From NCBI RefSeq assembly GCF_014203115.1, contig NZ_JACHIJ010000008.1, forward strand, positions 124,001 to 188,000: a DNA stretch of 64,000 nt. The letters run 5' to 3'. Made by a program: the position numbers and the translations under genes. The notes below the pieces were generated by a model. It was not told where the DNA came from. It made no database searches and was given only the letters and a program-made list of their open reading frames with translations. Shown here one piece after another: positions 56,989-62,267 of the stretch. Numbering within the stretch: the stretch's first letter is position 1; each line of letters starts with the position of its first letter. Origin of the DNA: Afipia massiliensis. GTDB lineage: Bacteria > Pseudomonadota > Alphaproteobacteria > Rhizobiales > Xanthobacteraceae.

Positions 56989-57924
56989 CTAGCGCCGTTG
57001 CATCAAGAGGCTGCTCCAGTTCTCGATCTGGATTCGCTTGAGCAGCTTCAGCCCCGCGCCGCTATAGGCGGCAACCACGCTGCTCGCTTGATGCGGCAGC
57101 AATCCCGACAAGATGACAAAACCCTGCGGAGCCAGGTGCGCCGCCAGCGCGGGCGCAAGCTGCCGCAGAGGATTGGCGAGGATGTTCGCCAGCACCAGGC
57201 CGAACGGGCCGTTGGCGGCAAAATGCGGCGACTGAAACCCGGTCGCATGGACAGCCTGGATCAGATTTCCGACGCCATTGAGATGCGCATTCTCGCGCGC
57301 CACGATCACTGAGCGTGGATCGATGTCGCTCGCCAGCACGCGCCGCCGCAGCGCCTTGGCGGCGGCGATGGCGAGGACGCCGGTCCCTGAGCCGAGGTCG
57401 AGGATGCGTTTGGGCGTGCGCTGGTGCAGCACCTGATCGAGCAGCAGCAAGCAGCCGCGGGTGGTGCCGTGGTGGCCGGTGCCGAATGCCAGCGCGGCCT
57501 CGATCTCGATTCCAAGTTTATTGACCGGCACCCGGTCGCGGTCGTGGCTGCCGTGGACGACGAAACGTCCGGCGCTGACCGGGACCAGATCCGCGAGGCT
57601 CGCCTTCACCCAGTCCTTGGTTTCGACCTTGCTGAAGACGATGGACTTCGCCGCTGCTTCCCCCGCCGTGTCGGTCACCAGCGCACGGATGACATCCTCG
57701 TCCGGGGCCTCGGCGAAATGCATGGTGACATCCCAGCGGCCGCCGGCCGCCTCGAAGGCGGCAATCGCCAGGTCGTGGCTGGGATAGCTCTCGGTGATGA
57801 TATCCACAACGCGGCTGGCCGTACGCTCGTCGCCGATGGCGAAGGTGGCCTGGGTCGCGGGCGAGGGGGGCAATGAATTCACGGGGCGGTCCAAATGGCT
57901 GAAATCGCTGACTGCATCGCCCAT
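56989..57924 (-). CDS. prmA: Ribosomal protein L11 methyltransferase PrmA
   Basis: 311 residues. An N-terminal substrate domain (~residues 20-120) and a SAM-dependent methyltransferase domain with ILDLGSGTGVLAIAAAKAL (motif I), ASDIDPRSVIVARENAHLNG, and LVLANILANPLRQLAP (NPPY-like NILAN). The FGTGHHGTTRGC stretch before motif I matches the FGTGxHxTT of PrmA. Trimethylates ribosomal protein L11. The region upstream carries an array of DnaA-box-like sequences that begins right at the start codon. Confidence 0.93.
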   Translation of the reverse strand: MGDAVSDFSHLDRPVNSLPPSPATQATFAIGDERTASRVVDIITESYPSHDLAIAAFEAAGGRWDVTMHFAEAPDEDVIRALVTDTAGEAAAKSIVFSKVETKDWVKASLADLVPVSAGRFVVHGSHDRDRVPVNKLGIEIEAALAFGTGHHGTTRGCLLLLDQVLHQRTPKRILDLGSGTGVLAIAAAKALRRRVLASDIDPRSVIVARENAHLNGVGNLIQAVHATGFQSPHFAANGPFGLVLANILANPLRQLAPALAAHLAPQGFVILSGLLPHQASSVVAAYSGAGLKLLKRIQIENWSSLLMQRR

Positions 57925-58069
57925 TTCCCCACAGCCTGTCCACAGGTTACTGACCGGGTTAGCGGCAGTTCTTCACAGTTTGTTAACCGGGGTTTTCCAC
58001 ATCCTACTGAAACTTTAACGGGCCGGAAATTCACAGCTTATTCACAGGGTTATCCACAGCTTCTCAACA
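57925..58069 (+). promoter_or_regulatory. Phased array of DnaA-box-like sequences
   Basis: Two perfect boxes: TTATTCACA (58038-58046) and TTATCCACA (58050-58058). One-mismatch boxes: TTCTTCACA (57969-57977) and TTTTCCACA (57993-58001). Weaker: TTCCCCACA (57925), CTGTCCACA (57936), AAATTCACA (58027), TTCTCAACA (58061). All are in the same orientation. The start-to-start distances are 11, 33, 24, 34, 11, 12 and 11 bases, i.e. near multiples of one helical turn. Candidate origin, DnaA-titration or DnaA-regulated promoter site. Confidence 0.6.
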
Positions 58070-58096
58070 GCCGTTCGCGGCAGTTTTGCTTTCGGT

Positions 58097-59698
58097 TCAG
58101 GTGAAGATTCCCCGGTGGTCCTTGAGGATCACCTGCGCCGCATTGTGCCCCGGGGCACCGGTCACGCCGCCGCCAGGATGCGCGCCGGACCCGCAGTGGT
58201 AGAGCCCCTTGAGCGGCCCGCGATACCCCGCATGGCCCAGCATCGGGCGCGCGGAAAACAGCTGGTTGAGCGACAGCGCACCATGGAAGATGTCGCCGCC
58301 GAGCAGTCCGAAATCGCGTTCGAGATCGAGCGGCGACAGCACCTGCCGTTCGATGACGCTGCGGGCAAATCCGGGCGCATAGCGATCCACGGTCGCGATC
58401 ATCAGGTCGGCGACTTCGTCGCGGTGATCGTCCCAGGATCGGCCGTCCGGCAGCTGCGGCGCGACGTGCTGGCAGAACAGACTGGCGACATGCTTGCCCG
58501 ACGGCGCCAGCGAGCCGTCGAGGGTGGAGGGGATCAGGACCTCGATCACCGGTTCGCGGCTCCAGCCCTGCTGGCGGGCATCGAGCCAGGCGCGGTCCAT
58601 GTAGCCGAGGCTCGGCGCAAGGATGATCCCGGCAGTGAGATGATCGCCTTCGCCGGGCAGCGCCTTGAATGACGGCAACGCGCCCAGCGCGACGTTCATC
58701 CGGAAGGTGCCGGACCCGTTGCGCCATGTCGTGATGCGGTCGAGGAAGGGTTTCGGCAGTGCGTCCGCCGGGATCAGCCGGGTATACAGAAGCTTCGGAT
58801 TGACGCTGGAGGCGACATAGCGCGCGCGCACCGTCTTGCCATTGTCGAGGACCACTCCAACGGCGCGGTCACCCTCGACAATGACTTCGCGCACACCAGC
58901 GTCCGTCTCGATCTCTGCGCCATGGCCACGGGCCGATGCCGCCATCGCCTGCGTGATCGCACCCATGCCGCCGATGGCGTGGCCCCACAGCCCCTTCCGG
59001 CCGTTCACTTCGCCGAAGGCGTGATGCAGCATGACGTAGGCCGAACCTGCCGCGTAGGGGCTGGCGTAATTGCCGACGACGGCATCGAACCCGAATAGCG
59101 CCTTGACCAGATCGCTTTCAAAGACGTCGTCGAGCATGTCGCCGGCGGACCGCGTGAACAGGTCGAGCAGGGTGCGCTGGTTTTCCAGCGTCAGCCCGCG
59201 CAGGATATTGGCGCTGGTCAGCGCGTTGAACGCCTCACGCATGGCGTGAAGGCCAAACCCTTCGACTAGGTCCGGCGGCGCACGCAGCACGAATTTGCGC
59301 AGCACATCGGCGATGGTTTCCAATTCGTGGTTGAAATCGTCGATCCGCAGCGCGTCGCGTTCGCTGAATTTTGCGATCGACTGATGCGTCCGGCCATCAC
59401 CGGTCAACAGGTAGCGGCCATCCGGTGCGGGCAGGAAGTTCTGCGCGCGGCGTTCCACGATCCGCAGGCCGTGGTGGTGCAGGCCGAGATCCGCGATGAC
59501 CTTCGGGTTGAGCAGGCTCACCGTGTAGGCGGCAACCGAGTTGCGAAACCCGGGATGAAACTCCTCGGTCACCGCTGCGCCACCGACCACCTTGCGGCGG
59601 TCAACCACCTTCACGCGCAGCCCGTTCATCGCGAGATAGGCCGCGCAGGTCAGGCCGTTATGGCCCGCTCCAATGATGAGTGCATCGTAATCAGACAT
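58097..59698 (-). CDS. FAD-dependent oxidoreductase, phytoene desaturase-like (PYROXD2 type)
   Basis: 533 residues from the ATG of MSDYDALIIGAGHNGLTCAA; the open frame upstream runs through repeat copy C and is not coding. N-terminal dinucleotide-binding GAGHNGLTCAAYLAMNG and DRRKVVGGAAVTEEFHPGF; C-terminal FAD contact YHCGSGAHPGGGVTGAPGHN. The family resembles carotenoid desaturases (CrtI) and human PYROXD2; no carotenoid gene is nearby, so the substrate is unknown. Confidence 0.88.
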   Translation of the reverse strand: MSDYDALIIGAGHNGLTCAAYLAMNGLRVKVVDRRKVVGGAAVTEEFHPGFRNSVAAYTVSLLNPKVIADLGLHHHGLRIVERRAQNFLPAPDGRYLLTGDGRTHQSIAKFSERDALRIDDFNHELETIADVLRKFVLRAPPDLVEGFGLHAMREAFNALTSANILRGLTLENQRTLLDLFTRSAGDMLDDVFESDLVKALFGFDAVVGNYASPYAAGSAYVMLHHAFGEVNGRKGLWGHAIGGMGAITQAMAASARGHGAEIETDAGVREVIVEGDRAVGVVLDNGKTVRARYVASSVNPKLLYTRLIPADALPKPFLDRITTWRNGSGTFRMNVALGALPSFKALPGEGDHLTAGIILAPSLGYMDRAWLDARQQGWSREPVIEVLIPSTLDGSLAPSGKHVASLFCQHVAPQLPDGRSWDDHRDEVADLMIATVDRYAPGFARSVIERQVLSPLDLERDFGLLGGDIFHGALSLNQLFSARPMLGHAGYRGPLKGLYHCGSGAHPGGGVTGAPGHNAAQVILKDHRGIFT

Positions 59699-59717
59699 GG
59701 CCCAGTCATAATCTTGG

Positions 59718-59882
59718 CTAGCGCGGGAGTTCGCAAGTCCGCAACATTTTCCCAGCACGTCCATTTGCGGACTTGCGAACCAAACCCACACTAGAATCAT
59801 AATTGGCTAGTGTCCTTTCGAATCCGAAGTTCGCTGTGGAGCGCGCTGGAAAATGAGGCGAACTTCGGATTCGGGACACTAG
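59718..59882 (+). repeat. Double-hairpin CTAG repeat, copy C (diverged subfamily)
   Basis: Hairpin 1: arms 59718-59744 (GTTCGCAAGTCCGCAA core) and 59765-59794, ending CACTAG; linker AATCATAATTGG (59795-59806); hairpin 2: arms 59807-59834 (CTAGTGTCC, TTT bulge, CGAATCCGAAGTTCGC) and 59858-59882. Arm sequences differ from copies A and B, yet the CTAG ends, linker length (12 against 13), and the position of a 3-base bulge on the linker side of each hairpin are kept. It lies between divergent genes, so it is not simply a terminator. Confidence 0.82.
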
Positions 59883-59990
59883 CGTCACGCGCGAGTGATT
59901 TCTGTCACGCGCATGTTATTGCCCGTCGTTGGCGGCTATGCTCCACTTCATGAGCGTCCGGTGATTTGCCGGAATTATCCCGGAGCTTCC

Positions 59991-62267
59991 ATGACTTCAG
60001 TGCCGTCCGACACCGCGAGCCAGTCCACCGGCGCGAGGAACACGCTCGTTCTGGTGGTTTACACCGCCGCGATCTTCACCAGCGCCCTGCTGCTGTTCTC
60101 GGTCCAGCCGCTGTTCACGAAGATGGTGCTGCCGCGGCTCGGCGGCTCGCCCGCGGTGTGGTCGGTGGCAATGGTGTTCTTCCAGTCGCTGCTGCTCGGC
60201 GGCTACGCCTACGCACATTATCTGATGACGTTGAAGAGCCGCGTTGCTCCCGTGGTGATCCATCTGGTGCTGCTGACGGTCGCGCTGTTCACATTGCCGC
60301 TGTCGATTGCAGGCGGGTGGGGCGAACCGCCGGCGAGTGGCTACGCGTTCTGGCTGCTGGGCCTGTTCGCGGTTTCGATCGGGCTGCCGTTCTTCGCGCT
60401 CGCCGCCAACAATCCGATGCTGCAGGCATGGTTCGTCCGCACCGGACATCCCGACGGACCCGACCCGTATTTTCTCTACGCCTCGTCGAACATCGGAAGC
60501 TTCCTCGCGTTGCTGTCCTATCCCGTGTTGCTGGAGCCGATGTTCTCGCTGCGGACCCAGAACCTGATCTGGACCTGCGGTTATGCGCTGCTGATCGTCC
60601 TGATCGCGGCGTGCGGCGTGTTGCTGTTGCGCTCACCGCCGATGACCGTTGAGGCCATCAGTGCCAGCGAGGGCGATGCGCCGGCACCGACATGGACGAC
60701 GCGGCTGCGCTGGATATTCCTTGCCGCAGTGCCGTCCGGCCTGCTGATCGCGGTGACGGCGCACATCTCGACCGACGTTGCGGCGGCGCCGCTGCTGTGG
60801 GTGCTGCCGCTGTCGCTGTACCTGCTGACATGGGTGCTGGTGTTCCAGTCGCGGCCGCTGTTGCCGCATTGGTTCATGCTCAAGCTGCAACCGCTCGCCA
60901 TCGCGGGCGTGATGGTTTTGCTCGCCGTTGGCGGGGAACAGAATTTGCTGTTGACGCTGGGCGGGCACCTGCTTTGTTTCTTTCTCATCGCCATGGCTTG
61001 CCACGGCGAACTGGCGCGCACGCGTCCGGCAGCGAACTATCTCACCGGTTTCTATGTGGCGCTGTCTTTCGGCGGCATGGTCGGCGGATTGTTCGCGGGC
61101 CTGATCGCGCCTTACGCGTTCTCTTGGATTGCGGAATATCCGATCCTGCTGGCGCTGGCCGCGCTGTGCCGCCCGGCCGGAACATCCACCGTTCGCGGCG
61201 GGCTGGTATTGTGGCTGGTCGCCGTTGTTGCCGCGCTTATCCTTATCGGTCTTGCTTACCGGGCAGGAACTGTCACCGAGTTCCTTGCAACTAACCGGAT
61301 CTGGGTTGTCGCCGGTCTCGCCTCCGTCATGATGCTGCTAGCCGTGCTGTGGAGGATCGACCGCTGGAGCGTGGCTGCACTGGTGGTGCTTGGATTGATT
61401 TTGATCCGCGTCTATCCCGCCGATGACGGCCGTGTGGAGACGGTGCGAAGCTTCTTCGGCGTCCACAAGATCGTGGTGACCTCGAACGGCCAGTATCACG
61501 TGCTGATGCACGGCACGACGATCCACGGCGCGGAGAAATTTCTGAACGACGACGGGACGCCGGTCAAAGGGAGGCCGGAGCCGATCAGCTACTATCACAA
61601 GGACGGCGGCATGGGCCGTGCGATCGCTGCGATCCGCGAACGCAAGGGCGGTCCGATCCGCGTGGCGGTGATCGGTCTTGGCACCGGCACGCTCGCCTGC
61701 CATGCGATGGAGGGAGAGGGCTGGAAATATTTCGAGATCGACCAGACCATGGTCGATACGGCGCGTGATCCCAAGTATTTCACTTATGTCAGCGCGTGCG
61801 ATCCCAACATGAAGCCGGTGATCGGCGACGCGCGGCTCACCTTCGCCAAGGAGCAGGACGGCGCTTACGACCTGATCATCGTCGATGCCTATTCATCGGA
61901 CGCGATTCCGATTCACCTCGCGACGGAAGAGGCGATGGCGATCTACAAGGCCAAGCTCGCGCCCCAGGGCGCGGTGGTGATGCATGTGTCCAACCGCCAT
62001 CTCGAACTGGCGAGTGTCGTCGTCGGCATCGCCGAAGAGAACGACCTGATGAGCTGGGTCTTCAACGAGGATTCCGGCCGCGACGTCGATTACATCTTCA
62101 CGACGAATGTCGTGATCTCCGCGCGAGAGGAAGCCGACGTCGGCAAGATCGCGTCGGACGAGAAGTGGCTGCTGACGGAAGCCACCGAAGGCCAGCGGGT
62201 CTGGACCGACGATTATTCCAACGTGCTTGGCGCGGTCTGGCGGCGGCTCAGCAAGCCTGACGAGTAA
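59991..62267 (+). CDS. Fused MFS-like / spermidine synthase-like membrane protein
   Basis: 758 residues from ATG 59991 (MTSVPSDTASQ); in-frame starts upstream add unlikely residues. The N-terminal ~500 residues form about 13 membrane helices (FTSALLLFSVQPLFTKMVLPRLGG is typical of this fusion family). The C-terminal ~250 residues are a spermidine-synthase-like Rossmann domain: VAVIGLGTGTLACHA, YFEIDQTMVDTA, DLIIVDAYSSDAIPIHLATEEA. Such fusions are common in proteobacteria, but whether they make polyamines is unsettled. Confidence 0.9.
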   Translation: MTSVPSDTASQSTGARNTLVLVVYTAAIFTSALLLFSVQPLFTKMVLPRLGGSPAVWSVAMVFFQSLLLGGYAYAHYLMTLKSRVAPVVIHLVLLTVALFTLPLSIAGGWGEPPASGYAFWLLGLFAVSIGLPFFALAANNPMLQAWFVRTGHPDGPDPYFLYASSNIGSFLALLSYPVLLEPMFSLRTQNLIWTCGYALLIVLIAACGVLLLRSPPMTVEAISASEGDAPAPTWTTRLRWIFLAAVPSGLLIAVTAHISTDVAAAPLLWVLPLSLYLLTWVLVFQSRPLLPHWFMLKLQPLAIAGVMVLLAVGGEQNLLLTLGGHLLCFFLIAMACHGELARTRPAANYLTGFYVALSFGGMVGGLFAGLIAPYAFSWIAEYPILLALAALCRPAGTSTVRGGLVLWLVAVVAALILIGLAYRAGTVTEFLATNRIWVVAGLASVMMLLAVLWRIDRWSVAALVVLGLILIRVYPADDGRVETVRSFFGVHKIVVTSNGQYHVLMHGTTIHGAEKFLNDDGTPVKGRPEPISYYHKDGGMGRAIAAIRERKGGPIRVAVIGLGTGTLACHAMEGEGWKYFEIDQTMVDTARDPKYFTYVSACDPNMKPVIGDARLTFAKEQDGAYDLIIVDAYSSDAIPIHLATEEAMAIYKAKLAPQGAVVMHVSNRHLELASVVVGIAEENDLMSWVFNEDSGRDVDYIFTTNVVISAREEADVGKIASDEKWLLTEATEGQRVWTDDYSNVLGAVWRRLSKPDE

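Follow-up and report, generated by a model that had tools for sequence, protein, structure and literature searches.

A conserved, single-direction array of DnaA-box-like sequences beside prmA in Afipia massiliensis and its relatives

The prmA locus and its box array

We analysed a 64-kb window of the Afipia massiliensis genome, by which we mean the whole stretch C8:124001-188000 of an assembly of 19 contigs and 5.33 Mb; coordinates without a contig name count from its first base. Two genes on the minus strand frame the feature of interest. The gene prmA (56989-57924) encodes ribosomal protein L11 methyltransferase (PF06325, E 7.3e-55), and its product is 96% identical to PrmA of Afipia birgiae. 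On the other side lies a gene for an FAD-dependent oxidoreductase (58097-59800; PF01593, E 3.4e-15), whose 3' end borders the interval between the two. Further along, a 790-aa open reading frame (59895-62267) has only a weak match, spermine-synthase-like and under the Pfam cut-off, towards its C-terminus. The interval itself (57925-58096) has a GC content of 0.506 versus 0.67-0.68 in both flanks, and it contains the whole array, which lies just upstream of prmA.

The array (57925-58069) consists of eight TTATNCACA-like boxes, every one of them on the plus strand. Two adjacent boxes match the consensus perfectly, namely box 6 (TTATTCACA, 58038-58046) and box 7 (TTATCCACA, 58050-58058), and two carry one mismatch, box 3 (TTCTTCACA, 57969-57977) and box 4 (TTTTCCACA, 57993-58001), the latter of which also fits TTWTNCACA. 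The remaining four have two mismatches each: box 1 (TTCCCCACA, 57925-57933), which directly adjoins the minus-strand prmA ATG at 57922-57924, box 2 (CTGTCCACA, 57936-57944), box 5 (AAATTCACA, 58027-58035) and box 8 (TTCTCAACA, 58061-58069). Successive boxes are 11, 33, 24, 34, 11, 12 and 11 bp apart. The minus strand of the interval holds no box at up to two mismatches.

These eight boxes, with their classes, single orientation and spacings within 145 bases, are exactly as the original prediction had described them, and no shuffled sequence reproduced them. The 175-bp interval tested (a stop codon in addition to the 172 bp of intergenic DNA) has 2 perfect boxes, 4 with no more than one mismatch and 8 with no more than two, compared with means of 0.004, 0.2 and 1.7 in 2000 dinucleotide shuffles, none of which reached any of the three counts. 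Across the window, boxes with at most one mismatch number 11 against a chance mean of 12.05, which is no excess, so that the unusual feature is their clustering. All three occurrences of TTWTNCACA in the 64 kb fall within the array.

The clustering also stands out genome-wide. The perfect close pair TTATNCACA-N0-30-TTATNCACA is confined to a single place in the 5.33-Mb genome, the array, and the relaxed pair TTNTNCACA-N0-30-TTNTNCACA occurs at two places, both inside it; in three Afipia genomes taken together the relaxed pair has five places, all within the prmA array. Eight of 12 other genomes reached via their prmA loci have a perfect close pair, one apiece and each within the prmA locus coordinates, and 7 of 18 genus genomes have none. 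A search of 248 family genomes found 29 with a perfect close pair, at 30 places, compared with a single place for the pattern read backwards. Half of the 30 places are at prmA; around the other 15, no prmA is seen within the 1.6-3 kb retrieved. Two of these 15 (L153 and L155, near position 1501) lie inside an open reading frame read as mnmE and close to one read as mnmG, suggesting that the region where the origin lies in other genomes carries strong boxes in part of the family.

We rejected an RNA element as an explanation of the interval, as Rfam gave no match in 57500-58400 at E values up to 1. A CtrA co-site at the array is a weak lead. For the CtrA pattern TTAA-N7-TTAA, counted without a shuffle control, several Afipia relatives have a site with one mismatch in the gap between boxes and L201 has a perfect one, whereas in the window the sole site with one mismatch coincides in part with box 3.

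Conservation and the candidate binding protein

PrmA is present in 27 of 29 genus genomes, and the two misses are genomes that are 83-84% complete. We compared 107 prmA loci from two sets (80 and 27, partly from the same genomes) and dropped 7 whose retrieved sequence did not show the oxidoreductase gene. In the remaining 100 loci the oxidoreductase gene lies next to prmA in the same order and within 4 kb, and removal of 13 identical intervals left 87 distinct ones. Each was given a chain score, with 3, 2 or 1 points for boxes with zero, one or two mismatches at steps of 11-13, 22-24 or 33-35 bp. This score favours ladder spacing by construction, whereas counts of pair spacings do not.

A same-strand phased array scoring at least 4 was found in 76 of the 87 distinct intervals in the forward direction and in one in reverse, compared with none of 2806 control chunks from the same loci. 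Intervals of up to 350 bp score at least 4 in 31 of 32 cases forward and 0 of 32 in reverse, and longer ones in 45 of 55 forward and 1 of 55 in reverse. Over 59 sources (2.45 Mb, both strands), the three prmA arrays among them were alone in scoring above 4, and the lone score of 4 comes from a piece that overlaps the window's array. The asymmetry between strands holds for simple box counts as well: the 30 non-redundant sequences among 45 short intervals contain 35 perfect boxes forward and none in reverse (shuffle mean 0.15), and 89 boxes with at most one mismatch forward and one in reverse (shuffle mean 4.8). Among box pairs 9-47 bp apart, 635 of 653 fall on an 11-12 bp ladder; these comprise 306 of 314 pairs in short intervals, from which the ladder was defined, and 329 of 339 in long ones, whose counts are not independent because the Bradyrhizobium rows are related, against 31% expected if spacings were flat. 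The best of four tested periods was 11.4 bp.

Shuffles, control chunks and conservation together rule out chance or base composition as the source of the array. Judged by its boxes, a phased same-strand array is conserved at the prmA locus across many relatives, as the original prediction had asked of a real feature. Eleven of the 87 distinct intervals score below 4, including that of strain BTAi1 (score 2). Reading frames were sought in 7 of the 55 long intervals, BTAi1 among them, where a 54-aa frame resembling a Flp-type pilin occupies the place at which Afipia has the array, which is nearly lost in this strain.

The most plausible ligand of these boxes is DnaA. A motif-free search for enriched words in the intervals returned pieces of TTATCCACAG as the top two 7-mers and the top three 8-mers. 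We compared the two core boxes (boxes 6 and 7 of the window) in 16 of the 27 genus loci, chosen because they looked in register, and both are perfect in 13 of these 16, the sole varying base being the free fifth position of the first core box, which is T, C or A; the exceptions are L198 with two mismatches and L201 and L202 with one each. Domain IV of the Afipia DnaA aligns with the E. coli DnaA chain 1J1V over 90 residues (91.6 bits), with RPRQ and FGGRDHTTVLHA identical. This chain is reported to have been solved on a DnaA box, and these residues to include base contacts. The predicted DNA-binding domain of Afipia DnaA therefore resembles that of E. coli, and we infer that DnaA binds the array.

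It is improbable that another DNA-binding protein recognizes the TTNTCCACAG-like repeat. Such a protein might explain why the consensus runs past the 9-mer (133 of 193 boxes have G as their tenth base) and why CTGTCCA is also a high-ranking word in the intervals. Against it stand the top-ranking words, which are pieces of the DnaA box, the conserved domain IV and the variable core-box base, which is one that DnaA tolerates. Same-direction sites about 11 bp apart also match the arrays of E. coli oriC, as described in an excerpt of PMC4451416.

The original prediction had also raised DnaA control of prmA. DnaA is known as a transcription factor, and bound DnaA might repress or time prmA or nearby genes, so that ribosome modification, or the expression of a neighbouring gene, would be tied to the replication cycle. 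The array lies directly upstream of prmA in the 32 of 87 distinct intervals with a gap of at most 350 bp (scoring at least 4 in 31 of them), box 1 abuts the prmA start in the window, and confinement of the array to one locus beside prmA is what this role would also predict. This part of the proposal is possible, but the gap is longer in the other 55 intervals, where boxes are common near prmA as well as at the oxidoreductase end: the final 100 bp adjoining the oxidoreductase gene are rich in boxes with up to two mismatches, 103 of them forward and 5 in reverse, and the boxes of long intervals nevertheless keep to the ladder (329 of 339 pairs). Six Rhodopseudomonas loci (L054, L058-L061 and L069) have boxes at both ends of the interval. 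A consensus scan of 57850-58200 found neither a sigma-70-like promoter nor a terminator, although the promoter result says little for this phylum, and no paper in the open-licence library that we searched contains both 'DnaA boxes' and 'prmA'. An array that can be separated from prmA in this way makes better sense as an element of the chromosome than as an operator of prmA. This counts against the prmA-promoter reading, and we consider a cis-regulatory role rather unlikely.

Position on the chromosome

The boxes are oriC-like in their phasing and lie in DNA with a GC content below that of the flanks, features that would also suit an unusual origin, as the original prediction had suggested. GC skew in the window is positive in 27 of 32 2-kb bins with no lasting switch, and none was seen in three further stretches of the same contig. 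The skew changes sign on another contig, at a switch located between about 20 and 32 kb on C3, where three parS-like palindromes lie at C3:25262-27324. The palindrome, TGTTTCACGTGAAACA, resembles parS. Frames around it were read by eye, without family search, as PpsR, rho, mnmE, mnmG, gidB, parA and parB. These frames fit the origin that was proposed for this family next to gidA, according to an excerpt of PMC2275245. In line with the original statement that neither dnaA nor hemE is nearby, dnaA is on C3 and hemE on C1.

The likely origin region (C3:20001-35894, L173), near the PpsR and rho frames, contains no perfect box and only weak, scattered DnaA boxes, with hemE on a different contig.

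Relatives gave a consistent position. Sampling of skew and of a KOPS-like motif over 20 stretches each placed the array mid-arm in A. clevelandensis (G002, L007) and in AGun1 (G007, L012); in the latter there is a local skew switch at 3.31 Mb, and the 3.5-Mb sample has the opposite sign to that predicted from it, so that this arm is not clean. The distance from prmA to parS, computed from their coordinates and expressed as a fraction of chromosome lengths that were partly rounded, is 0.24 in G077 and G209, 0.21 in G135, 0.25 in G166, 0.30 in G217, 0.29 in G037 and about 0.30 in G225 (via the ends of a three-contig draft), all of which have arrays scoring at least 5. With a weak array or almost none, it is 0.28 in G260 (score 4) and 0.25 in BTAi1 (score 2). 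In the A. massiliensis genome, G001/G200, G003/G180, G241 and, going by contig name, G009, prmA and parS are on different contigs. Where boxes are present in the genomes measured, they point with the replication fork, as the conserved gene order would entail, so that this adds nothing independent. The mid-replichore position may likewise reflect only that gene order.

Of the hallmarks of oriC, then, the array shows the cluster of DnaA boxes; the skew switch lies elsewhere, and A/T-only runs in 57401-58600 reach 6 bp at most, giving no clear unwinding element by this measure. With the skew switch and parS-like sites on C3 and a mid-arm location in two relatives, we ruled out the array as the replication origin. 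A second or unusual origin, or the relic of one, has the phased boxes and the low GC content in its favour and the same skew, parS, mid-arm and A/T-run results against it, and we regard it as highly improbable.

A proposed role in the control of DnaA

The array is present, phased, conserved and unique in its genome, and it lies away from the origin in relatives. From its box content it appears to be a variant of a wider kind, the DnaA-box cluster outside the origin, of which datA and DARS are the E. coli examples. The datA locus titrates DnaA and promotes hydrolysis of DnaA-ATP, and the DARS loci, the DnaA reactivating sequences, promote the replacement of ADP by ATP on DnaA. Both act on the nucleotide state of DnaA, and their distance from oriC is conserved, according to an excerpt of PMC4585315. 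In PMC12371093 (2025), the heading of one section attributes to DARS1, DARS2 and datA a large fraction of the titration power of the chromosome, and a passage of that paper places the E. coli boxes most densely near oriC, unlike in the genome with the array.

The datA locus has two consensus boxes and four with one misfit, as excerpted from PMC5835720, and the array shares with it a non-coding setting away from oriC and a composition of two consensus boxes with several weaker, near-consensus ones. It differs in being one same-direction ladder beside prmA, and also in position, datA lying at 94.6 min against 84.6 min for oriC (excerpt of PMC4585315) and thus nearer the origin than the 0.21-0.30 of the arrays. 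In the same passages of PMC5835720, datA needs an IHF site, and we saw no good one in the window interval. The interval's best match to the IHF consensus WATCAANNNNTTR has two mismatches, and among the 32 short intervals that are distinct, 15 have one mismatch at their best site, 15 have two and 2 have three, all without a shuffle control.

The three-box core of DARS contains an inverted box. The array, by contrast, is a long single-direction ladder with no reverse box at up to two mismatches, and hence has no inverted core. DARS2 itself needs IHF and Fis sites in addition to the three-box core (excerpt of PMC4585315). The likeness to DARS2 is one of place: DARS2 lies 0.21 of the E. coli chromosome from oriC and its position matters, according to part of PMC5010248, which is similar to the 0.21-0.30 of the arrays. 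The array thus seems to resemble datA and DARS in place or composition, without the inverted core box. The datA/DARS-like site that was originally proposed agrees with the conservation and phasing of the array, with its being unique in the genome and with its mid-replichore position, but not with the lack of an inverted DARS core.

In its architecture the array is closer to the low-affinity arrays of E. coli oriC, R5M-tau2-I1-I2 and C3-C2-I3-C1, in which same-direction sites exactly 2 bp apart are filled from a high-affinity anchor (excerpt of PMC4451416). It likewise combines two strong boxes with an in-step ladder of weaker ones in the same direction, but it is not at the origin, has perfect boxes, and advances by 11 or 12 bp with empty rungs.

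We propose that the array is a non-origin, mid-replichore chromosomal control element that binds DnaA, similar to datA and DARS2 and built as one unidirectional phased array, a reading that we judge to stand at about even chances. Binding of DnaA would begin at the neighbouring pair of perfect boxes (58038 and 58050) and then spread cooperatively along the weaker ones, which would lie on about the same helical face since each spacing is close to a multiple of 11-12 bp and every box points one way. Once the fork has duplicated the locus, roughly midway along the arm, the oligomer could take up further DnaA or shift its ATP/ADP state, and this effect might help to limit replication to a single initiation per cycle, comparably to datA and DARS2 in E. 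coli. Because eight boxes would hold few DnaA molecules, simple titration would need filament growth or a catalytic effect. Both the filament and replication control as the purpose of the array are what we infer from its layout and place. Several observations count against a control site: 11 of 87 intervals score below 4, 15 of 30 perfect close pairs in the family are not beside prmA within the DNA retrieved, and no good IHF-like site was seen in the window interval. An Hda-like gene was found in all six genomes searched, at 113-122 bits and thus below the 194.8-bit cut-off; on these sub-cut-off scores, absence of Hda finds no support as the reason for the array, and another route of DnaA inactivation may already be present.

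A more specific version is possible, if on balance short of probable. The array could be a DnaA-control locus that belongs to the Bradyrhizobium/Afipia/Rhodopseudomonas family itself and arose independently of datA and DARS, a unidirectional helical ladder in mid-replichore. In Afipia it would be the strongest DnaA-box cluster of a chromosome whose origin region has only weak boxes, and its copying halfway through replication would shift DnaA from the origin.

Among the papers listed by our searches of an open-licence library, no title or abstract opening names a datA- or DARS-type locus for this family. A conserved unidirectional array off oriC would make DnaA control by chromosomal sites directly testable in these Alphaproteobacteria, and it could offer a naturally occurring system in which to study how DnaA assembles on double-stranded DNA. 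The array is also relevant to the prediction of origins, where the DnaA box itself is at issue. For the Bradyrhizobiaceae, the DnaA box put forward by Ori-Finder is TGTTTCACG (excerpt of PMC2275245), and the genome paper of O. carboxidovorans reports the same box in the passage seen in PMC3091675. DnaA domain IV and the arrays suggest instead that the family uses the ordinary TTATNCACA box, and TGTTTCACG is half of the parS-like palindrome TGTTTCACGTGAAACA at the origin region, beside the frames read as mnmE, mnmG, parA and parB.
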